Shown piece after piece: positions 7,102 through 48,991 of a DNA stretch of 54,384 nt. Every line of letters begins with the position of its first letter. Within the stretch, counting starts at the first letter, position 1. Below the pieces are notes generated by a model, which worked only from the letters and a program-made list of their open reading frames with translations, was not told the DNA's origin and did not search any database. The stretch covers positions 1-54,384 of the IMG/VR virus record IMGVR_UViG_3300044809_000029; one strand, 5' to 3'. The stretch is from a virus. A program made the translations under genes and the position numbers.

Positions 7102-8813
7102 CAGGCGTTCACGCTCCGGCTGACCTCGTACCAGTAATCGCCCGTCGCTTGGTAGGCGAGCGTGATCGCGTCGTACTTCGTCGCGCTGAAGTTCGCCCCA
7201 CCCGCCAGCCTGAGACTCGACCCGGCTTGGAGGATGCACCCGATGTTCGTGTTGAACTGCAACGTGATCTTGCGGTCCTGCCGCCGCGACGGCGAATCCA
7301 ACGCGGTGATCGTCGTCTCCCCGGTGACGTTCACGTTGTCCTGATCGTCGCGGACAATCAGCGTCGCCGCCGACGGACGGTCCGCCGTCTGATTCGTGGA
7401 GTTGCCCGCCACTCGGTTGTGGATGCCGGGCACGCTCATCGAGTCCGTCTGGAAGCCGAAGATGACGTTGCCGGTGAACGAGTTGTAGTCGCACACGCCG
7501 GGCGCATCGTCGAGGGAGCGGATGCCGTACGCGTGGTTTGGGCTGCCGTTGGTGTCGATGATCGTGTTGCCGGTCACCGCGCAGCCCTTCACGTCCGTCT
7601 GCGGGCTCCCCACCGCCGCGAGGCGAATCGCGCCGTCGGGAGTGCCGACGCAGCAGTTGTAGATATCGTTGCCCGAGACGACCGTCCAGCTCGCGCCGAC
7701 GAGGATGCCCTGGAAGTAGGCGCCCTCGATGTAGTTGCCCGAGACGACGTTGCGCTCCGAGGCGCCCGAGGCGGCGTTCGCGGTGATGTAGACGCCGCGG
7801 GAGTGGTTGAGGATCGTGTTCCCGGTGATCGACGTGCCGCGGGTCCCGTTGGAGCACCGGACCCCGGCGTAGCCCGTGGAGTTCGTCGCGGCCTTCGTGA
7901 TCGAGTTCCCGCTGACGGTGCAGTATTGGGCTTGGGAGACGTTCACGCCCGAGGAGTAGTTCTCCTCGAGGATGTTGTCGCTGACGACGACGTGCCACGG
8001 CCCGGAGTCGGCGACGCCCGAGTTGCCGGAGAGGGCGATGCCGTGCCCGCCGCTGACCGCGAACGCCGCGGCCGACCCGGACCCACTGACCTTGCAGCCC
8101 GAGATGCGGCCGCTCTTGGAAGCCTGCGTCGTGTAGTCGATCAGGATGCCGTTGTTCCACGCGTTGCGGACCGCGACATCCACCACCGAGAAGTCGGTCG
8201 TTCCCTCGATGATGATGCCGTTGCCGCCCGGCACGTTGGCCTGGTTGCCGTCGACCGTGAAGCCGCGCAGGTGCACGCCCGTCTTGTCGGTCACGCGGAA
8301 CACAGCGACGTTCGAGCCGGCCTTCGCGCGCACGACAGCGGTCCTCGGACCGATGACGGTGGTGTTCGACGGTGGCGTGATGTTCGCCGAGACGTCCATG
8401 AGCCGATTCGGAGGGAGCTGCAACACGCCGCCGACGGCGGGGTCGAGGTCGGCGTAAGCGTTCGTGAACGCGGTGTTGTAGTCGGCGTGCGAAGCGTTCC
8501 AGTAGTCCAGGAGCGACACGTCAGCGGGGCGAACCTCGAACCGCTGCTTCCACGTACGACCGCCAGCGGCAGTGACAACGAGGTCGTAGGCGCCCGGTTC
8601 GAGCCACAACTCCGCAGCCGGATCGGTGGGGGCACTGAGCCTCCCGTACGTCGTCGTCAGCGGCTGCGTGATCTGCGTCGTCCCGGTCGAGGCCGCGTAG
8701 ACGGGAGCCGCGCCGTCGCCACGGTAGTTGACGGCGACACTCGCGCCATCCACATGGACGAGGAGGCGGCCCTGCGGCTCGAAGACGGACTCCTGAAGCT
8801 GCGTGCGAGCCAT
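7101..8813 (-). CDS. Tail spike with right-handed beta-helix (570 aa)
   Basis: After an N-terminal ~110 residue domain, residues about 130-480 contain the regular GNxI / VxGNxI turns of a pectate-lyase-like parallel beta-helix (VSDNILEENYSSGVNVSQAQ, CTVSGNSITKAATN, SITGNTILNHSRGVYITANA, VSGNYIEGAYFQGILVG). Such spikes bind and often cleave surface polysaccharide. A small C-terminal beta domain ends the protein. It starts one base inside the upstream gene's stop. Depolymerase activity is likely but no active-site residues were assigned. Confidence 0.8.
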   Translation of the reverse strand: MARTQLQESVFEPQGRLLVHVDGASVAVNYRGDGAAPVYAASTGTTQITQPLTTTYGRLSAPTDPAAELWLEPGAYDLVVTAAGGRTWKQRFEVRPADVSLLDYWNASHADYNTAFTNAYADLDPAVGGVLQLPPNRLMDVSANITPPSNTTVIGPRTAVVRAKAGSNVAVFRVTDKTGVHLRGFTVDGNQANVPGGNGIIIEGTTDFSVVDVAVRNAWNNGILIDYTTQASKSGRISGCKVSGSGSAAAFAVSGGHGIALSGNSGVADSGPWHVVVSDNILEENYSSGVNVSQAQYCTVSGNSITKAATNSTGYAGVRCSNGTRGTSITGNTILNHSRGVYITANAASGASERNVVSGNYIEGAYFQGILVGASWTVVSGNDIYNCCVGTPDGAIRLAAVGSPQTDVKGCAVTGNTIIDTNGSPNHAYGIRSLDDAPGVCDYNSFTGNVIFGFQTDSMSVPGIHNRVAGNSTNQTADRPSAATLIVRDDQDNVNVTGETTITALDSPSRRQDRKITLQFNTNIGCILQAGSSLRLAGGANFSATKYDAITLAYQATGDYWYEVSRSVNA

Positions 8814-9979
8814 TACGGACTCGTCACGGTGCCGGCGGCAGTAGAAGCGGAACCCGGGAGCGCAGCAGGCCCGGTCATCGTGACGTCAGCGGTACCAGCG
8901 TTGACAGTGACGGAGGTCGTGTAGTCGAGCCCTTCGACGTTCTCGATCGCAGCGACAACATCGCGGTAGCGCACGATCGGGCGGTCAAGCCACGCTTGGG
9001 AATCGCCGAACGGCGGGCGACCCCAGTTCGCGGGGGACAGGAACGCGAGCACCGCCGCTTCCGCGCGAGCTTCAACATCCGCAGGGTCGTACTGCGCGTA
9101 GCACTTCGCAGCGAAGACAACCGCGATCGTCGTGTACGTCGCGGCGATCCAGTTGATCGTGAGATGCGAAACGGCTTTCGCGGCCTGGAACGCCTGCCCG
9201 TTCGACCGGGCAGTCCCACCGGGGTCAAGGCCCGCACTGTTGACGACAGCGAGCGTCATGATCCCCGCGTTGTTCGACGTGCCGTCCCCCGGGTTGTAAC
9301 CGTCGAGGGGCAGCGCGCGGGCGATCAGCGCGACGTTCGCCACAGCGTCATCCGCGAAGTCCTGCGCGAGCACGAGTGTCTCCGCAGTCAGGCGCGTTGA
9401 GGTGACGAGCCGGTTGCGGTACGCGTCCCGGTCCTCCTCGTCAGCGCCTCCGGTGGTGGGGGCTTCGACGGTGATCGTGTCGACCCACGCGAGCGCGTCC
9501 TCGAGCTGCGGGTCCGTCTGCAACCCGGAACCCGTCGACCCGGCTTCGACCGCGAGGATCTCGACCTCGCCGATGCCAGTGGAGAGCTGCCCGCTGAGAA
9601 TCGTGACGTCCTGTGTGGTCTGAAACCCGACGCGCGTCGTGCCGTCAGCGCCGAGGACCGTCATAGTGGTCCCAGCGGGGAGGAGCTGATCGCCGACGCT
9701 GCTGGTCCTCGTCCAGGTGGTGAGGCCGGTGGCTTGCGTGGCGGCGTTGATCGGCTTGCCGCGGAGGTTCGCTCCGAAGGATTCCCAGATCGTGTCGAAG
9801 ACCTCCGTCGCGAGCTCGCGCGTGATCGCGTGCTGCTCAGCGTCCGCCTCGACGATGACGTTGATCGGGTGCCCGTCCTGCACGACCAAGCCGGGGATGC
9901 GCTCCTCGAGGAGTGCGAGTTCGCTGTCCTTGATGGCTTGCGGGTCCGTTTCGAGGCTGATCGAGATGTAGTCGGTCAA
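8813..9979 (-). CDS. Baseplate J-like protein (388 aa)
   Basis: Carries the J-type layout: GANLRGKPINAATQATGLTT, then LPAGTTMTVLGADG, then AVEAGSTGSGLQTDP, then DEEDRDAYRNRLVTS and a C-terminal wedge domain. The family (P2 gpJ / Mu gp47) forms the baseplate wedge of contractile tails. It lies downstream of the gp25-like gene, as in P2 and Mu. Confidence 0.9.
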   Translation of the reverse strand: MTDYISISLETDPQAIKDSELALLEERIPGLVVQDGHPINVIVEADAEQHAITRELATEVFDTIWESFGANLRGKPINAATQATGLTTWTRTSSVGDQLLPAGTTMTVLGADGTTRVGFQTTQDVTILSGQLSTGIGEVEILAVEAGSTGSGLQTDPQLEDALAWVDTITVEAPTTGGADEEDRDAYRNRLVTSTRLTAETLVLAQDFADDAVANVALIARALPLDGYNPGDGTSNNAGIMTLAVVNSAGLDPGGTARSNGQAFQAAKAVSHLTINWIAATYTTIAVVFAAKCYAQYDPADVEARAEAAVLAFLSPANWGRPPFGDSQAWLDRPIVRYRDVVAAIENVEGLDYTTSVTVNAGTADVTMTGPAALPGSASTAAGTVTSP

Positions 9980-33552: not shown

Positions 33553-34095
33553 TCAGAACCCGTACAAACCGCGAACGGCCCCCGTTGCGGCGTGAGCAGG
33601 TAGGCGTTCGGGGTAGGCCCCACCCTTGCGGTAGCGGGTGACTCTGTTGGCCTTCGCTTTGCCTGTACGGATGGGTGTTGGTCCGAGGTCGTTGGTGCGC
33701 GCCATCTGCTGCTCCAGTTCGTCTCGCTCGGGGCGCATGGCTGCGTAGAGGAGGTGGCCGAGGAGGGAGCGGTCACCCTTGGCTCCGTTGCAGGCAGCGC
33801 AGGCCGAGGTGTAGTTGGTCCAGTTGTTCTCGCCGCCCTTGCGGTAGGGCACGATGTGGTCCGTGTGCTGAGCGGTAGCTCCGCAGTAGGCGCAGGGATC
33901 GTTGGCGAGCACGGCGTAATAGCGGCCGGTGTCGACATCGCCGATGCGGAAGTCCCATGCTTGGCTGGGAGTGCGTGCCCGTGCGCGCCTTTTCTGCGCG
34001 GCTCTCATGCAGCTTCGGGCGCAGTAGCGTTGGTTGGCTCTGCTGGGATGGAAGGGCTTGCGGCAGCCGCTGTGGGCGCAGGTAGCCTTGCGCAT
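33553..34095 (-). CDS. HNH endonuclease (180 aa)
   Basis: Two zinc pairs at the N-terminus (ATCAHSGCRKPFHPSRANQR, YCARSC) and a classical HNH core with CAYCGATAQHTDHIVPYRKG, GENNWTNYTSACAACNGAKG. HNH genes beside terminases often help cut DNA during packaging in actinophages and HK97-like phages, so this one may be functional in packaging rather than purely homing. Eight bases upstream of TerS. Confidence 0.85.
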   Translation of the reverse strand: MRKATCAHSGCRKPFHPSRANQRYCARSCMRAAQKRRARARTPSQAWDFRIGDVDTGRYYAVLANDPCAYCGATAQHTDHIVPYRKGGENNWTNYTSACAACNGAKGDRSLLGHLLYAAMRPERDELEQQMARTNDLGPTPIRTGKAKANRVTRYRKGGAYPERLPAHAATGAVRGLYGF

Positions 34096-34155: not shown

Positions 34156-34461
34156 CTATGTGGTGGGTCGTGCTCGGGCGCCGCGGCTGAAGTTGCAGTG
34201 AGCGCAGGCGGGAACGAGGTTCTCGCGCGTGCTCCTACCGCCTTGGCTTACGGGGATCAGATGATCGGGCGTGGTGGCCGGCTTACCGCACCAGTGGCAG
34301 GGCGGCTTGTCGCGCTTGATCCTGGAGCGGATGGCGCGGTAGTTGGCGAGGCCGGTTTCGCGGCTGCTGGGGGAGCGCCTGTCCTTCGGGGGATGCGTCG
34401 GGCAGGGCTCGCCTGGGCCTATGAGGTTCGGGCAACCAGGGATCGCGCACACCGAGGTCAT
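34156..34461 (-). CDS. HNH endonuclease (101 aa)
   Basis: Short HNH protein with CAIPGCPNLIGPGEPCPTH at the N-terminus and core PPCHWCGKPATTPDHLIPVS, TRENLVPACAHCNFSRG. ATG 34461 overlaps the upstream stop. Second HNH in a row ahead of the terminase. Typical of the HNH gene near cos sites in actinophages. Confidence 0.8.
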   Translation of the reverse strand: MTSVCAIPGCPNLIGPGEPCPTHPPKDRRSPSSRETGLANYRAIRSRIKRDKPPCHWCGKPATTPDHLIPVSQGGRSTRENLVPACAHCNFSRGARARPTT

Positions 34462-34580
34462 GTGCCGATGCCTTTGCGCCACAGCCACCTTCGCCATGCG
34501 GGCCAAGCGACGTAGCGCTTGAGGGTCGCTGCGAGTTCCGGTGGGAGGTCGTGGATCTGGCCGGCGATGAGGACGATCAT
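34458..34580 (-). CDS. Tiny protein (40 aa)
   Basis: ATG 34580 and TGA 34460-34458 overlap both neighbours. Peptide MIVLIAGQIHDLPPELAATL plus a Trp/Arg-rich end (AWPAWRRWLWRKGIGT). Possibly a short membrane-associated peptide. Confidence 0.45.
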   Translation of the reverse strand: MIVLIAGQIHDLPPELAATLKRYVAWPAWRRWLWRKGIGT

Positions 34581-34777
34581 GCGACCCTGAGTTCTTCGGT
34601 CTTGGCTTGGGCTCGCGTGGTGCGGTCGTGTTCGGCGAGGCGGTCGTCTGCTGATACGGCTGCTTCGAGGGCGGACGCGCGCCGTTCCTCTAGAGCGTTG
34701 GTGATGCAGAGGGTGCGGTAGCGGTCCCATGCTGCTGCGGTTGTGCTGGCGAGCTGGTGACGGGGATCGGGGCTCAC
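34577..34777 (-). CDS. Small helical protein (66 aa)
   Basis: GTG 34777 overlaps the stop of the interrupted zinc-ribbon gene (GTGA). Helical, charged (NALEERRASALEAAVSADDR). After the transposon insertion its translation can no longer be coupled to the intact upstream gene, so its expression may be changed. Confidence 0.5.
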   Translation of the reverse strand: MSPDPRHQLASTTAAAWDRYRTLCITNALEERRASALEAAVSADDRLAEHDRTTRAQAKTEELRVA

Positions 34778-34827
34778 GTGTTCGGTTCCCATCGGGAGCA
34801 GCACGGGCAGCGCCAGTAGACGGCGTG
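34774..34827 (-). pseudogene. 3' part of a zinc-ribbon gene split by the transposon
   Basis: Encodes HAVYWRCPCCSRWEPNT and TGA, in perfect frame with the 5' part at 37762-37821 once the element and one target copy are removed. Supplies the second Cys pair. Confidence 0.85.
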
Positions 34828-34835
34828 CCCGATGT
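34828..34835. repeat. Target-site duplication, left copy
   Basis: CCCGATGT, identical to 37762-37769 and directly outside the inverted repeat. Eight bases is the usual IS1595-family duplication length. Confidence 0.95.
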
Positions 34836-34863
34836 GGCAAGTATCCCCTTGACGTAGGTAAGA
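34836..34863. repeat. Terminal inverted repeat, left (28 bp)
   Basis: Starts GGCAAGTATCCCCTTGACGT and is a perfect reverse complement of 37734-37761 over all 28 bases. Confidence 0.97.
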
Positions 34864-34871
34864 CATTCTGG

Positions 34872-34877
34872 GACAAT
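34872..34877 (+). promoter_or_regulatory. Candidate -10 of the transposase gene
   Basis: GACAAT six bases before ATG 34884, just inside the left end of the element. Spacing again implies a leaderless message; a TTGACG lies in the inverted repeat at 34849-34854, 17 bases upstream, and could serve as -35. Confidence 0.5.
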
Positions 34878-34883
34878 CCTTCT

Positions 34884-35870
34884 ATGTCGCAGGTAGACCG
34901 CAACTACCCAACGCGAGGCTCCGCTTCGGAGTCCACGTACTCGATCATGGAGTTCCTTCGGGAGTTCCCTGACGACAAGACGTGTCTGGACTGGCTATGG
35001 CGCAAGCGGTACTCCGAGGACGGCGAGCACGCCTACTGCTTCAAGTGCTCGAAGACCCGCAAGTTCCATCGCGTGAAGTCGCGGCCCTCGTATTCCTGCG
35101 ACCACTGCGGGCTGCACATTCACCCGACGGCCGGGACGATCTTCAACAAGTCCGCCACGTCGCTGCACTTGTGGTTCTACGCGATGTACCTGATGACGAG
35201 CACTCGCTGCGCGGTGTCCGCGAAGCACCTTGAGCGCGAGCTTGGCGTGACGTACAAGACCGCGTGGCGGATGGCGAACCGCATCCGCAACGTGCTCATG
35301 GACCAGGAGGACGAGCCGCCGCTGTCCGGTGAGGTTGAGGCCGACGAGACGTTCTTCGGCGGCAAGCCGCGCGCGGCTGAGACGCGCGCTCGTCGCAGGG
35401 GCCGGTCGCTGCACGCGCCGCAACCCAAGGTGCCGCCCGCGAAGCGCAAGACCGTCGTGTTCGGTGCCGTCGAGCGCGGCGGGCGGATCAAGGCGACGGT
35501 CGTGGCGGATAGTCGAGCGCACACACTCGGGCCGGTCGTGCGCCAGTACGTCATGCCGTCCTCGATCCTGTTCACGGACGAATGGAAGGGCTACATCGAC
35601 GTGGGCTACCGCTACCGGGAGCACCACCGGATCAAGCACTCCGAGGACGTGTACGTGAGCGGCAACGTCCACACGAACACCATCGAAGGTTTCTGGTCCA
35701 ACGTGAAGCGCGGCATCTCGGGCAACTACCACAACGTCTCCACGAAGTGGCTACAGGGCTACCTCAACGAGTTCTGCTGGCGCTGGAACCAGCGCAAGAG
35801 CGGAGACGGCCGCGCGATGTTCGAAGCGCTCGCGCTCCGCGCTGTGGACACGGCGCTGCCGTGGTCCTAG
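34884..35870 (+). CDS. IS1595-family transposase (328 aa)
   Basis: N-terminal zinc ribbon (C52, C55, C72, C75; AYCFKCSK and YSCDHCG) typical of the family, then an HTH-like region and the DDE_Tnp_IS1595 (ISXO2-like) core: D154 in EVEADETFFGGK, D232 in LFTDEWKGY, and NTIEGFWSNVKRG near 265-277, where the family has Asn or Glu. Length is normal and the frame is intact, so it could be active. It moves the element by cut-and-paste or copy with 8-bp duplications. Confidence 0.93.
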   Translation: MSQVDRNYPTRGSASESTYSIMEFLREFPDDKTCLDWLWRKRYSEDGEHAYCFKCSKTRKFHRVKSRPSYSCDHCGLHIHPTAGTIFNKSATSLHLWFYAMYLMTSTRCAVSAKHLERELGVTYKTAWRMANRIRNVLMDQEDEPPLSGEVEADETFFGGKPRAAETRARRRGRSLHAPQPKVPPAKRKTVVFGAVERGGRIKATVVADSRAHTLGPVVRQYVMPSSILFTDEWKGYIDVGYRYREHHRIKHSEDVYVSGNVHTNTIEGFWSNVKRGISGNYHNVSTKWLQGYLNEFCWRWNQRKSGDGRAMFEALALRAVDTALPWS

Positions 35871-35885
35871 GAGCTGCGCCCGGTT

Positions 35886-36050
35886 CTACGCGGGCTTAGT
35901 TCGCCGTCCGAGGCGACGCGGCGTAGGGCTTGCAACTGCTGGTCGTCGTGTCCCGGAGGCGGGACCCCTTGGCGGCGGCCCCAACTTGCTCGCGGACTTC
36001 CCACCAGCCGCGTAGCCTCGCTGCATCCTCCAACCCGTCTTCTTCGCCAT
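35886..36050 (-). CDS. Basic Pro-rich small protein, transposon cargo (54 aa)
   Basis: MAKKTGWRMQRGYAAGGKSA continues with a Pro, Arg and Ser rich basic tail. It follows the DUF6338-like gene by 23 bases. A GGAGGA lies about 18 bases before the ATG, with a small GCCGC/GCGGC hairpin in between that could shorten the distance. I recall similar short 'GYxP' basic proteins beside DUF6338 genes in actinobacteria, but cannot verify that here. Confidence 0.5.
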   Translation of the reverse strand: MAKKTGWRMQRGYAAGGKSASKLGPPPRGPASGTRRPAVASPTPRRLGRRTKPA

Positions 36051-36073
36051 TGGGCCGCGAACGCGGCGTCCTC

Positions 36074-36700
36074 CTATCTCGGTGCGAACTCCAGATATTC
36101 TATCTCCGCCCAGCGGACGACAAACCCGTACTCCTTGAACTTGGCTTTGCCCTGGGCGTCGCGCACGAACTCCCCGGTTTCCGCGTCAATCTCGACTGCC
36201 TTCGACACGAAGATGTCGGCCGGCTCGGGATACCCGCCCGCGTAGGAATCCTCGGCGTACGCCCCTCCGATCCAGGCGCCGGACTTCAGCTTCATCCGTA
36301 TCCAACCGTCCGGCTGGCGTGACAGAAGATGATCCCAAGCGGTCGGCGCGGGATTTGAGCCCTCAATTACGGCCGGTAACGACCACCTGTTCAGCGCGAG
36401 GCCGAGCAGCGTCCCGGCAACGATAGGCACCGCGACATAGCCGATACCGACCGGCCACAGCCACCACGGCAAGACCGAACCCTGTCGGACCGCGTCGGTG
36501 CGGAAGTAGTCGTGCCAGAGCTTGTACGTGACGGGCGCCACCAGGGCGTGGAGGATCGTCGAAACACCCACAAACCGGAGAAGTCGATCCGAGAAGCCAA
36601 TGCCGTAGCGACCAACCAAACGCTCGACGGCCCACATGAAGAGGCCGCCAGGTAGCAACGCAACAAGGATCACGGCCAGCGCTTGAAACGTGCTGGGCAT
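36074..36700 (-). CDS. DUF6338-like membrane protein, transposon cargo (208 aa)
   Basis: N-terminal hydrophobic helices at about 5-25 (FQALAVILVALLPGGLFMWA), 43-58 and 85-108 (WLWPVGIGYVAVPIVAGTLL) are followed by a cytosolic beta domain: WDHLLSRQPDGWIRMKLKSG, WIGGAYAEDSYAGGYPEPAD, IFVSKAVEIDAETGEF, RWAEIEYLEF. This layout matches DUF6338 as I remember it, a family without a known function. The middle gene of a leftward three-gene set between two small basic proteins. Confidence 0.65.
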   Translation of the reverse strand: MPSTFQALAVILVALLPGGLFMWAVERLVGRYGIGFSDRLLRFVGVSTILHALVAPVTYKLWHDYFRTDAVRQGSVLPWWLWPVGIGYVAVPIVAGTLLGLALNRWSLPAVIEGSNPAPTAWDHLLSRQPDGWIRMKLKSGAWIGGAYAEDSYAGGYPEPADIFVSKAVEIDAETGEFVRDAQGKAKFKEYGFVVRWAEIEYLEFAPR

Positions 36701-36738
36701 CGCTGAAGGCTAATTGAGCGCGGGAATCCCCGCTCGCG

Positions 36739-36882
36739 TTACTTCGGAGACTTGTCCGGAGCGCTAGGTGCCTTCGGCGCGGCCTTCATTAGATCGCGCA
36801 GCACCGCGTCCCGCGTTGGGATCGGTATCTCCGCGCCCTTCGGGGTCTTCTGCTTAGGCTCCGGATTCTGTTCGCCAGCCAT
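36739..36882 (-). CDS. Small basic protein, first gene of the cargo set (47 aa)
   Basis: MAGEQNPEPKQKTPKGAEIP then IPTRDAVLRDLMKAAPKAPS: a Lys/Pro-rich start, an EIPIPTRDxxLRDLxKAA core and a disordered end. ATG 36882 is six bases after a TAGGCT hexamer. It is divergent from the 36900 gene with only 17 bases between, so the two share control DNA. Similar cores accompany DUF6338 genes in my memory; function unknown. Confidence 0.6.
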   Translation of the reverse strand: MAGEQNPEPKQKTPKGAEIPIPTRDAVLRDLMKAAPKAPSAPDKSPK

Positions 36883-36899
36883 CAACACAGCCTAGACCG

Positions 36900-37688
36900 A
36901 TGAGTCATTGGCTGAAGCTCAGCCGGGCGCTCGACCACGTCGACGCTCTCGACCGCGCCATCAAAGGGTGGCTGGCAGGTGACTCGTACCGCTTTGTCAA
37001 GGAGTACGACACCGAGACCCGGAGGGTCGCAATCGTCGCTCGGATCAGCGAACCGATTCCTCCGGCATGGGGCCCGATGATCGGAGATGTCGTCCACAAC
37101 CTGCGGTCGGCGCTCGATCATCTTGCCTTCGCCCTCAACGCAAAGGGCTATGCCGACGCCAACAACGGAGCGACGCTCCCCGAGAAGGCCGTCAACGACT
37201 CGGAGTTCCCGATCTTCGGCCACGGAACCGCCAAGCTCACCGCTAAGGACGCGTTCGACAACGCCAGCCGGAAATACGCGCACATGGACTCGGCGGCGCA
37301 AGCCGTCATCACGAAACTCCAGCCGTATCAGCGAGGGGCCGAGTTCGCCAGCGACCCCTTGTGGGTCGTCCATGAGCTGAGCCGAATCGACAAGCACCGC
37401 GAACCTCTCACGATCGCGTTCGCAACCCCTTCCTGGCAGATTCGTGGCGGGATGCTGGGAGGTCCCAGCCAACTCGGAAACGCAGGGCCGGTAGAGGACG
37501 GCTTCGCCTTGCACTGGTGGACTTCCCCTCACGGCCCATCTGAAGCCGATCCGGAGTTCAAGGTCACCCGCGAGATAGCGTTCGCGGACGGAACGGAAGC
37601 GCGGTACCAGCCAGTCGTCCCAACCCTCCGGGGGCTGCGGGACTACATCCGATTCAAGGTCGCGTTCCCGCTGGACAAGTGGCTCTAG
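36900..37688 (+). CDS. Cargo protein with HEPN-like RX4H motif (262 aa)
   Basis: Residues 61-82 read IGDVVHNLRSALDHLAFALN, with R69-x4-H74, resembling the catalytic RX4-6H of HEPN ribonucleases, in a predicted long helix. A second conserved-looking block is ITKLQPYQRGAEFASDPLWV then HELSRIDKHREPL. The C-terminal half is mixed beta. I know this 'HNLRSALDHLA ... LxxIDKHR' pattern from uncharacterised actinobacterial proteins; the HEPN link is inference. Gene ends 45 bp before the right inverted repeat. Confidence 0.6.
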   Translation: MSHWLKLSRALDHVDALDRAIKGWLAGDSYRFVKEYDTETRRVAIVARISEPIPPAWGPMIGDVVHNLRSALDHLAFALNAKGYADANNGATLPEKAVNDSEFPIFGHGTAKLTAKDAFDNASRKYAHMDSAAQAVITKLQPYQRGAEFASDPLWVVHELSRIDKHREPLTIAFATPSWQIRGGMLGGPSQLGNAGPVEDGFALHWWTSPHGPSEADPEFKVTREIAFADGTEARYQPVVPTLRGLRDYIRFKVAFPLDKWL

Positions 37689-37733
37689 CTCAGACTTCTC
37701 TGCTTGCCATGCGGGGAAAATCATCTCAATACC

Positions 37734-37761
37734 TCTTACCTACGTCAAGGGGATACTTGCC
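37734..37761. repeat. Terminal inverted repeat, right (28 bp)
   Basis: Perfect reverse complement of 34836-34863. Confidence 0.97.
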
Positions 37762-37769
37762 CCCGATGT
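37762..37769. repeat. Target-site duplication, right copy
   Basis: CCCGATGT, matching 34828-34835. It is also codons 18-20 of the interrupted gene. Confidence 0.95.
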
Positions 37770-37821
37770 GGTCGAACACGAGTGTCATCCCGAGTCGGCA
37801 GAGCGCGCAGGTCTTGGTCAT
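37762..37821 (-). pseudogene. 5' part of a zinc-ribbon gene split by the transposon
   Basis: ATG 37821 overlaps the upstream stop (ATGA) and encodes MTKTCALCRLGMTLVFDHIG before the element. Joined to 34774-34827 it gives a 37-residue protein with two Cys pairs (CALC, CPCC). In the current genome the frame runs 11 codons into the transposon and stops. Confidence 0.85.
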
Positions 37822-38213
37822 GCCGCCATCGCCTCAGCCTGGCGGATCTTCCTGCCGTACCAAGCGGGGCGGCAGGAGTAGCACTTGACGCGCGGGCGGC
37901 CCATGTTGGTCTCGCGAACGAACCGGCCACCGCATTCGGTGCAGGTCTGCTCGCCGGTGGGACGGGGGACGAGTTCAAGGTGCGGCTGGCGGTGCTTGCC
38001 GCGTACCAGGCTGGGGTCCGTGGCGACGAGATGGACGCCCGCGTCCGCGAGCATGTGATCGAAGGCCGCGTCCTTGAGTTCGGTCGCGCCGTCGACCATC
38101 TTGCCCTCGGCGATCGCGCCCATCTTCCAGGAGGAGTGCAGCCAGTTGTCGAACGCGGCGAGGTAGGCGCGTTGAGCAGGCGAGATCTTGATGTCGTCGT
38201 CGTTGCTCGACAT
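37818..38213 (-). CDS. Zinc-ribbon protein (131 aa)
   Basis: Helical N-terminus (SPAQRAYLAAFDNWLHSSWK) followed by a zinc ribbon at about 90-115 (QTCTECGGRFVRETNMGRPR, VKCYSCRPAW) and a basic helix. Upstream neighbour of the interrupted gene. Possibly DNA-binding, role unknown. Confidence 0.6.
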   Translation of the reverse strand: MSSNDDDIKISPAQRAYLAAFDNWLHSSWKMGAIAEGKMVDGATELKDAAFDHMLADAGVHLVATDPSLVRGKHRQPHLELVPRPTGEQTCTECGGRFVRETNMGRPRVKCYSCRPAWYGRKIRQAEAMAA

Positions 38214-47023: not shown

Positions 47024-47760
47024 GCCGCCTTCTCCAGCTCGCTCGCTTCCATCGCCCGCTCAAGCGCGACCATCCACGATCCGAACCGCTGCCGGAGAAC
47101 CCCAATCGTTGGGGCTACCCCGCCTGTCGACCACTGTTCGTACTCCCTCGCGGCGGGCCAGTGACCAAGCTCCGCAGCGCAGTCCTCGAGTGCCATCAGC
47201 AAGCCGTCCTCGCTGATGCGGTTGCGGTAGACCTTCGGCCGGTTCTCCGCGACGACTCGCAGCCCGGCTGCGGCGACAACGTTCCGCCAGCTACCGAACC
47301 GCCAGATCATGGTCGGCCGTGATGGCATCGTCCCGCCGGACCGGCTTGCGGCGCTGTCGTAGTTGGTGCAGGACACGCGACCGTCGATCGCGACCGAGCG
47401 GATCGCCTCGAAGATCGCCTCGTTGGTCCATTGCACCTTTCCCGTGGCACGCGCCGCTGCGCCGCGCCGGCCTTCCATGCTTGCGAGGTGCGTCCTGTTG
47501 CAGCGACGGCAGCGCTTCGGGACGCCTCCGGCGATGTAGGACGTTGGGGCTCCGCAGTCGCCGCAGGTGCCGCCGTAGCGAGCCTTACGGGCCCGCGCTG
47601 CCTCGCCGGTGGGGTCGTAGTAGGCGCTCGTCACCGACGAGACGGCGACGCCCATCGTGTCCGCGATCTCCTTGAATGTGCAGCCCTGCTCCTTGAGGAG
47701 GCAGACCCATTCGTGGCGCTCGGCGCGGCGCATACGGACGCCGTTCGGGTTCGCACTCAT
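47020..47760 (-). CDS. Homing-endonuclease-associated repeat protein (246 aa)
   Basis: An N-terminal HTH (HEWVCLLKEQGCTFKEIADT), a zinc ribbon (GTCGDCGAPTSYIAGGVPKR, CRRCN) and two copies of the repeat found with HNH homing enzymes (first ending PTMIWRFGSWRNVVAAAGL, second GHWPAAREYEQWSTGGVAPT ending RFGSWMVALERAM). No HNH core is seen, so it is the DNA-recognition part alone or a domesticated regulator. Overlaps the recombinase stop. Confidence 0.7.
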   Translation of the reverse strand: MSANPNGVRMRRAERHEWVCLLKEQGCTFKEIADTMGVAVSSVTSAYYDPTGEAARARKARYGGTCGDCGAPTSYIAGGVPKRCRRCNRTHLASMEGRRGAAARATGKVQWTNEAIFEAIRSVAIDGRVSCTNYDSAASRSGGTMPSRPTMIWRFGSWRNVVAAAGLRVVAENRPKVYRNRISEDGLLMALEDCAAELGHWPAAREYEQWSTGGVAPTIGVLRQRFGSWMVALERAMEASELEKAA

Positions 47761-48563
47761 GCGCCCGTCCCCGGCCACTGGCGGACGCTGATCGCGTCGA
47801 TGACCTCCTGCGGACTGATCCCCGCTAAGTAGTTCGCCGTCGTAGCCAGATTCGAGTGCCCCAACTGCCGGGACACGAGATGGATCGGCGTGCCCTCCCG
47901 AGCAAGCTCACAAGCATGGGCATGGCGAAGCTGGTGAGGCGCCATGCGATGCGGGATCTTCGCCCGGACCCGGAACGTCCTGAGCAGCCCCCGCACATAC
48001 GCCGGATGGACGCGGTTCCCCATCGACGGAGCGTTCACCGTGCAGAACAACGGCGACCCCTCCGGCACGCGAAGCATCGCCCGCACCATGAGCCAACGAC
48101 TGATCTCCAAGAGGCCGCCCTGGTCGATCCCCGACACGCGCCGCTTCGATCCCTTCCCCGACATCACGGTCACCGTCCGGTTCGTGAAGTCGATCTCGTG
48201 CGGCAGCAACGCGAGCGCCTCGCTGATCCTGAGCCCGCTCCGCCACAACGTCACGAGCAACGCCCGATTCCGCACCCCGCGCTTCGTCTTCGGATCGCAC
48301 AAGTCCAGGAGGCGGAGCATCTCCTCCGGCGACGGAGGAGAAGCCGGGAAGCGCTTCCCCTTGTTGCGAGGAGCGACGCCGGCGTTGTAGCCGGGCATCG
48401 TGATCGGGCTCCGGTAGCGGCCCGCAGGCGCGGCGTCAGCCGGGACGGTGAGCCCCGTCGCGGGGTCCTCGAGCCACTGCACTTGACGAAGCGGGAAGCG
48501 GCGCCACCGGGAGGTGTGGCCGACGAGCGTCACCTCGCCGCGGAGACGGACACGGGTCGTCAT
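47757..48563 (-). CDS. Tyrosine recombinase (268 aa)
   Basis: Catalytic set complete: R112 in SGLRISEAL, K137 in GKGSKRR, H210-x2-R213 in HQLRHAHA, H236 in LGHSNLATT and nucleophile Y245 in TANYLAG. The N-terminal core-binding part (about 1-95) is short and basic, with no arm-type domain, more like a Xer-type enzyme than a classical phage integrase. It is leftward in the early operon, far from the serine integrase, so it probably has a different job such as dimer resolution. Confidence 0.85.
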   Translation of the reverse strand: MTTRVRLRGEVTLVGHTSRWRRFPLRQVQWLEDPATGLTVPADAAPAGRYRSPITMPGYNAGVAPRNKGKRFPASPPSPEEMLRLLDLCDPKTKRGVRNRALLVTLWRSGLRISEALALLPHEIDFTNRTVTVMSGKGSKRRVSGIDQGGLLEISRWLMVRAMLRVPEGSPLFCTVNAPSMGNRVHPAYVRGLLRTFRVRAKIPHRMAPHQLRHAHACELAREGTPIHLVSRQLGHSNLATTANYLAGISPQEVIDAISVRQWPGTGA

Positions 48564-48991
48564 GCTGCTGCCTCTCGTTCGGGAACCCACCGCTGACCGG
48601 ACAGGCGAAAGACGACGCTAAGCGGGTCGGAGTAGTGGGACTGCATGTGAGCGAGCTCCGCCTCGAACCCTCGGCCCGCTAGGTGCGGCAGGAGGTCGAG
48701 GCGGCCGTCGTCGAAGTCACGGTGATGACGGCGACACAACGCGATCACGCAGTCCGCGTGGTCGCAGCCTCGGAAGCTCCTCGGCGTCAAGTGCGCGGCG
48801 TCGCATTCCAGGCTCGCGCACTCGATCACCGTGCAGACCTGGACGCTGGTCTTCGCGCGCTGCTCCGGGCTCGCCGCCGTGAAGGAACGCCGGGGGCGCT
48901 GGCTCGCGCTGCGGAGCGGTGTCGGTTTCGCTGCGAACGTCGTGCCTCTGGCGAGGCTCTTGGCGCCGGCCTTGAGCGGGGAGCGCCTCAT
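48560..48991 (-). CDS. HNH nuclease (143 aa)
   Basis: Basic N-terminus (RSPLKAGAKSLARGTTFAAK), then VCTVIECASLECDAAHLTPR, FRGCDHADCVIALCRRHHRD, DFDDGRLDLLPHL: an HNH core with a Cys-rich zinc knuckle, close to the phage recombination-endonuclease/NinG-like HNH proteins. It lies among replication and recombination genes, which favours a role in DNA processing. ATG 48991 overlaps the previous stop. Confidence 0.75.
   Translation of the reverse strand: MRRSPLKAGAKSLARGTTFAAKPTPLRSASQRPRRSFTAASPEQRAKTSVQVCTVIECASLECDAAHLTPRSFRGCDHADCVIALCRRHHRDFDDGRLDLLPHLAGRGFEAELAHMQSHYSDPLSVVFRLSGQRWVPEREAAA

Follow-up and report, generated by a model that had tools for sequence, protein, structure and literature searches.

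An IS1595-family transposon with a conserved, putative accessory gene and probably exchangeable cargo in a phage genome

Insertion sequences (ISs) that carry passenger genes are usually viewed as one-off captures. Such elements, known as transporter insertion sequences (tISs), have already been described (PMC9330008), and a treatment of the IS1595 family (Siguier 2009) is cited in PMC3129680. Tn3-family transposons trade toxin-antitoxin pairs at their res sites (Lima-Mendez et al. 2020, PMC7157771). We studied an element at positions 34836-37761 (2926 bp) of a viral record from IMG/VR (IMGVR_UViG_3300044809_000029); all 54,384 nucleotides of this record were analyzed, and we will call this stretch the window. 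The element is of a known kind, an IS1595-family tIS. What is new is a conserved accessory gene and the systematic exchange of cargo. (We found no description of either in the literature searched, with ISfinder and the founding IS1595 paper outside its reach; the group or its small gene may already be on record in one of those.) The best overall explanation, which we consider likely, is that this is a complete IS1595 transposon in a temperate phage, with a conserved chassis and exchangeable cargo.

The original prediction, made from the sequence alone, included perfect 28-bp inverted repeats, an exact 8-bp target duplication, a length of 2926 bp, and an intact transposase. All of these were confirmed when we rechecked the coordinates and the length in the sequence. 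The repeats (34836..34863 on the + strand and 37734..37761 on the - strand) are complementary at 28/28 bp; no other perfect pair in the region is longer than 13 bp. The repeats are flanked by identical copies of CCCGATGT, at 34828..34835 and 37762..37769. A perfect 28-bp inverted pair with an identical flanking 8-mer is far beyond chance. Just inside the left repeat is tnpA (34884..35870, + strand), which encodes an IS1595-family DDE transposase of 328 amino acids. It matches PF12762 across the full model (E = 7.7e-43) and NF033547 (E = 3.3e-65, 220 bits versus a cut-off of 75).

The ISXO2-like DDE transposase, the terminal inverted repeats, and the 8-bp duplication place the element in the IS1595 family. 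It is also a tIS: genes for a DUF6338 protein and for a protein of 262 amino acids, both unrelated to transposition, lie between the ends of one IS. The element resembles described IS1595 tISs in having a PF12762/NF033547 transposase, inverted repeats, an 8-bp duplication, and passengers inside the ends (PMC9330008, PMC3129680). However, its clade adds a convergent small gene, a recurrent cargo family (the 262 family), and cargo exchange; the literature searched gave no description of the recurrent family either. The annotated named relatives, ISCsp2 and ISAcr1, have transposases that are only about 29-33% identical to the window's. The element is present as a single copy in the 54-kb contig. 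A composite or Tn3-type transposon does not fit the single transposase, the lack of a second IS copy in the contig, and the lack of a resolvase-like open reading frame (ORF) within the element. The element is best read as a complete transposon with passenger genes that probably inserted recently.

To compare this element to its relatives, we picked loci by the transposase alone, ignoring cargo; bacterial genomes contributed 60 of these and viral contigs 9 (loci are labeled L). Inverted repeats and an exact 8-bp duplication fixed both ends of about 32 elements, which share GGyAAnTATCCCTTGAC-like ends. A profile of these ends extended the set to 54 elements, including the window's, some of which have just one end inside the contig. 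Most are 1.9-4.2 kb long, and plain ISs are almost absent. At least four phyla have members of the clade: Actinomycetota, Chloroflexota, Acidobacteriota, and Nitrospirota. TTGAC is kept in the left repeat of 27-33 of 33 elements, but not in the right repeat, which fits a -35 box for tnpA within the left repeat. In the window, the left repeat contains TTGACG (34849-34854), likely the -35 box of tnpA; a spacer of 17 bp separates it from GACAAT (34872-34877).

The small accessory gene of the window element (36739..36882, - strand; recognized through its relatives) encodes 47 amino acids from an ATG, or 49 from a GTG at 36888, with the core QKTPKGAEIPIPTRDAVLRDLMKAA. A profile of this ORF detected relatives in 30 ORFs of 12,609. 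They share the core QKTPKGxEIPVPTRxxVxxxLxKAA and have one predicted helix. Most elements of the Acidobacteriota branch have a diverged version (P-I/L-T/S-R-x-x-F-x-x-LLKRA) at the same position. All told, a small gene of 45-65 amino acids is present in 44/54 delimited elements (25 by the first profile and 19 by the second). Leave-one-out E values range from 6e-3 to 3e-20. When the two profiles are aligned to each other, the probability is 82%. The gene is nearly always on the opposite strand from tnpA, tail to tail, and often overlaps the end of tnpA. (In L033, a trypsin-like cargo protein, encoded at 7837-8961, ends C-terminally in the small-gene motif, TPAGAEIPIPTKEQFLDDLTKASRKIKPE.)

We also used the small gene alone as the query. 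In 249 genomes of one class, it had 23 matches, and 19 of these adjoined such a transposase; in 245 genomes of a second class, this was so for 11 of the 14 matches. Most of the matches without a transposase have an element end nearby or are at the edge of a contig. The adjacency assigns the small gene to the transposon itself and not to its cargo. Furthermore, across 17 elements, the identity of the small protein correlated with that of the transposase (Mantel r = 0.70, p = 0.0002). This comparison used aligned small proteins; an earlier untrimmed comparison (r = 0.19) was distorted by misplaced starts, as in L010. Elements whose cargo is of another kind (L004, L011, L014, L022, and L041) retain the small gene as well.

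The gene for the 262-amino-acid protein (36900..37688, + strand; also recognized through its relatives) contains the motifs GDVVHNLRSALDH and IDKHR, and its start codon is 17 bp from the divergent small gene. (We considered a shared leaderless divergent promoter for these two genes, but saw only suggestive TATAC motifs and do not claim one.) Its family is the commonest cargo, in 22/54 delimited elements. About 20 other elements have this gene paired with the small gene inside IS1595-type ends, and many of them show exact 8-bp duplications, so the original prediction survives the concern that similar cargo might never be found between such ends elsewhere. Residues G62, R69, P104, D164, and H166 are invariant in the family, with motifs NLRSALDH and DKHR. 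Other recurrent cargo includes a C-x-x-C/EHLL protein (L004, L009, and L032), an RNxFEHxDER-type protein (L005, L024, and L041), DUF3800, and DUF5343; further types include RelA/SpoT and N6 methylase proteins.

Closely related elements often have very different cargo. In L017, L020, and L058, the transposases are 94-97% identical and the small proteins are 76-84% identical, but the 262-family proteins are just 25-32% identical. The corresponding values for L009 and L049 are 93%, 77%, and 27%. In L014 and L016, the transposases are 89% identical and the cargo proteins belong to unrelated families. At the DNA level, homology between sister elements covers the first 0.95-1.15 kb or so and stops near the start of the small gene; where it is detected again, it resumes only in the right repeat, within the last 24-60 bp. 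(L014 and L016 additionally share an internal 60-bp stretch, over the small gene.) Matching target duplications at both ends of L017, L020, L014, and L016 rule out chimeric assembly within those elements. More broadly, the identities of the transposase and the 262-family protein did not correlate (Mantel r = -0.07, p = 0.68; the same 17 elements), and, mapped onto the transposase tree, the presence or absence of the family changes 8 times or more. The window element follows this pattern: its transposase is closest to that of L004 (63% identity), which has other cargo, while its 262-amino-acid protein most resembles the one in L016 (50-52%), an element with a transposase only about 55% identical to the window's.

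These elements therefore appear to consist of a chassis (the left end, tnpA, and the small gene) whose cargo is exchangeable: the small gene tracks tnpA, the 262 family does not, and the DNA homology of sister elements breaks at the small gene. The cargo had been described as a defined gene set, which is not borne out: the sister elements and the Mantel tests show it to be exchangeable. The chassis runs from the left repeat, which holds the likely promoter of tnpA, through tnpA to the convergent gene of 45-65 amino acids. Cargo precedes the right repeat, and some elements have more of it in the interval that separates tnpA from the small gene (in the window, DUF6338). TnpA would cut both repeats and insert the element with an 8-bp duplication. 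The small protein would assist or regulate transposition and would not act as an antitoxin for the cargo. Cargo would be swapped between adjoining elements that have ends in common, or through recombination within the chassis. In an adjoining pair, the outer ends would move, and a deletion would then leave new cargo behind the old chassis. We did notice elements in such arrangements: L109 and L144 are side by side (right end, the 8-bp GGCTTGAC, left end); L005 has two inverted elements, and the second copy of the 262-amino-acid gene there belongs to the second element; and L038 has a remnant of the small gene 29 bp beyond its right end.

Could these instead be ordinary tISs, with chance passengers and no special architecture? 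Passenger-bearing ISs have been described (PMC9330008; also PMC3129680, as far as its citation of the family goes), and the cargo is of many types. However, a single family accounts for the cargo of 22 elements, and the small gene has a fixed position and strand in 44. The fixed small gene largely refutes this explanation, which we consider quite unlikely. We also considered that the small gene and the 262-amino-acid gene form a toxin-antitoxin pair, that is, an addiction module that stabilizes the transposon. The two genes are divergent neighbors, with start codons usually 13-31 bp apart; the small basic protein is next to a larger protein with an R-x4-H motif; and such pairs do occur in Tn3 transposons (PMC7157771). 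But a dedicated antitoxin is expected to change together with its toxin, and the small protein does not do so with the 262-amino-acid protein (Mantel r = 0.04, p = 0.37). Furthermore, the small gene is present without the 262-amino-acid gene and is kept beside other cargo, so the joint inheritance of a type II toxin-antitoxin system is lacking. This reading seems very unlikely. Another possibility is that the cargo has not been exchanged and has instead diverged quickly in place, since sister elements carry the same family in the same slot. This seems inconsistent with tnpA being 97% and the small gene 84% identical while the cargo is at 32% without DNA similarity, with the abrupt breakpoint, and with the unrelated proteins of L014 and L016; we consider it extremely improbable.

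A different question is what the cargo does. The 262 family might be an anti-phage or anti-mobile-element effector, with the clade as its shuttle, and in the window it might act in superinfection exclusion. This is a real possibility, albeit a doubtful one. Turnover behind the constant chassis is extreme. One cargo protein (L022:2841-4112, with a RelA/SpoT domain) matches PDC-S33, a PADLOC candidate defence family, at 1.9e-122; there is also a weak match to PDC-M34A and a restriction-modification-like gene in L071. However, PADLOC had no matches for the window's cargo, so the fitness or defence function for the prophage that had been suggested is not supported, and across 25 members of the 262 family it gave one weak match, to CARF_HEPN (0.022). 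The family has an R-x4-H motif in a helix, which recalls HEPN RNases (R-x4-6-H, including CARF-HEPN), but the histidine of this motif is not invariant: R69 is, whereas several members have N, Y, A, or Q in place of H74. No member has a credible Pfam match, and the family has no sequence match in PDB. The AlphaFold2 model of the window's protein (pLDDT 87, pTM 0.85) had no fold match in PDB at E < 0.001, although Foldseek may miss small helical domains; its matches in BFVD were two unnamed viral proteins (1e-9 and 1e-5). A role as a HEPN-like RNase or in defence is a guess. If so, the protein would be an effector that changes rapidly, either a HEPN-like RNase or of the abortive-infection type, and would favor retention of the element in the host or phage. 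The broader idea of a cassette system across phyla, in which a fixed two-gene chassis (tnpA and the small gene) repeatedly swaps a hypervariable effector and carries it through chromosomes and temperate phages, with the effector often belonging to a new defence family of the RNase or abortive-infection type, strikes us as unlikely.

Several observations weigh against a clade-wide chassis with exchangeable cargo, or against its application to the window. Two of the 54 elements look nearly cargo-free (L055, at 774 bp with a truncated transposase, and L042, at 1449 bp). About 20 mostly weaker matches to the 262 family are away from any transposase. The relatives are mostly from metagenome-assembled genomes. 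The putative role of the small gene is drawn from its co-inheritance with tnpA only. Finally, the search for related phages that lack the element, as the original prediction had suggested, was run and found none. The exact 21-mer of the joined flanks had no match, the flanking gene of 131 amino acids (described below) had one weak partial match and no empty site, and the closest relative by terminase (L152, 54% identity) has no similar flank.

Terminase, portal, scaffold, and tail genes mark the window's record as a tailed phage. Because it has a tyrosine-recombinase-type integrase (47757-48590), it is fair to read the phage as temperate, and so the claim of a cargo-carrying IS1595-type transposon inside a temperate phage is upheld. 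The host is probably actinobacterium-like. Joining the flanks gives back an ORF of 37 amino acids with two CxxC pairs, a predicted zinc-ribbon, and therefore the element split a predicted small phage gene. Translating the joined flanks places the 5' part (20 codons) at 37762..37821 and the 3' part at 34774..34827, both on the - strand; the start of the ORF overlaps (ATGA) the stop of the upstream gene of 131 amino acids (37818-38213). On the way from the terminase region to the insertion site there are two HNH-endonuclease-like genes (33553-34095 and 34156-34506).

The window element is not the only one carried by a phage. Related elements are beside phage genes in the viral contigs L064, L065, L066/L067, and L072 (the case of L071 is weaker). 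The exact 28-bp end of the window element had no match in viral contigs. L066 and L067 are the same element, with the same duplication (AGGTCCGA) and DUF3800 cargo, adjoining tail-fibre-like genes in two contigs. As for the 262-amino-acid protein, none was confirmed in viral contigs, annotated phages gave two weak Gordonia matches only, and just 1 of 72,556 plasmids has a relative, about 0.75 kb from a remnant of an IS1595 transposase. Another viral contig (L070:2766-3146) has a free-standing N-terminal part of the transposase (zinc-ribbon/HTH), 83% identical over residues 11-137 and followed by a stop, without element ends; this could be phage reuse of a DNA-binding domain, or decay.

The original prediction listed four non-transposase genes (about 1.9 kb). 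Three are backed by relatives (DUF6338, the small gene, and the 262-amino-acid gene). The fourth, an ORF of 54 amino acids (35886..36050, - strand), is probably not a gene, as it has no Pfam match and no relative was seen. Another ORF, of 280 amino acids (36882-37724, - strand), is antisense to the 262-amino-acid gene. The DUF6338 gene (36074..36700, - strand), between tnpA and the small gene, encodes a predicted membrane protein of 208 amino acids that is a full-length member of PF19865 (E = 1.8e-31). DUF6338 is a widespread membrane family. Among the transposase-selected loci, only the window element has it. A member from Pseudomonas stutzeri is in a predicted operon with three small proline-rich proteins; those proteins were reported as not conserved (PMC10433244). 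We also considered that DUF6338 and the small gene might be a general pair, but there is no such small gene beside DUF6338 genes of the same class (L155-L157).

Two other kinds of elements turned up among the relatives. L112/L130, in which a 262-family gene and the small gene lie between both ends, with AGCTTGAC on each side and no recognizable transposase, is a non-autonomous derivative. And in one sub-lineage (L104/L133, L109/L144, L112/L130, L107/L132, and L005/L087/L129), the 8-bp duplication or flank ends in CTTGAC (CGCTTGAC, GGCTTGAC, AGCTTGAC, and CCCTTGAC). This ending matches a -35 box as well as the motif conserved in the repeats, CCCTTGAC, so a target preference for promoters or for element ends is possible.

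As in Tn3 transposons with toxin-antitoxin pairs, differing gene modules occupy one fixed slot beside the transposition genes and are exchanged between transposons (PMC7157771). However, no resolvase or res site was seen here, the edges of the exchange are the start of the small gene and the right repeat, and the tightly kept partner follows the transposase. The fast swapping of a single family behind a constant carrier recalls the exchange in Tn3 (PMC7157771) and suggests that new alleles are selected for, as happens in defence or conflict; for the window, this is a hypothesis.

A whole clade appears to keep a dedicated accessory gene while its cargo turns over, which is the pattern expected of arms-race genes. 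The small gene could serve as bait for finding more cargo, much of it unannotated. Sister elements such as L017, L020, and L058 are a ready set for studying the function of the cargo, the role of the small protein, and the mechanism of exchange. The group would be a natural shuttle for fast-changing genes, possibly defensive ones.

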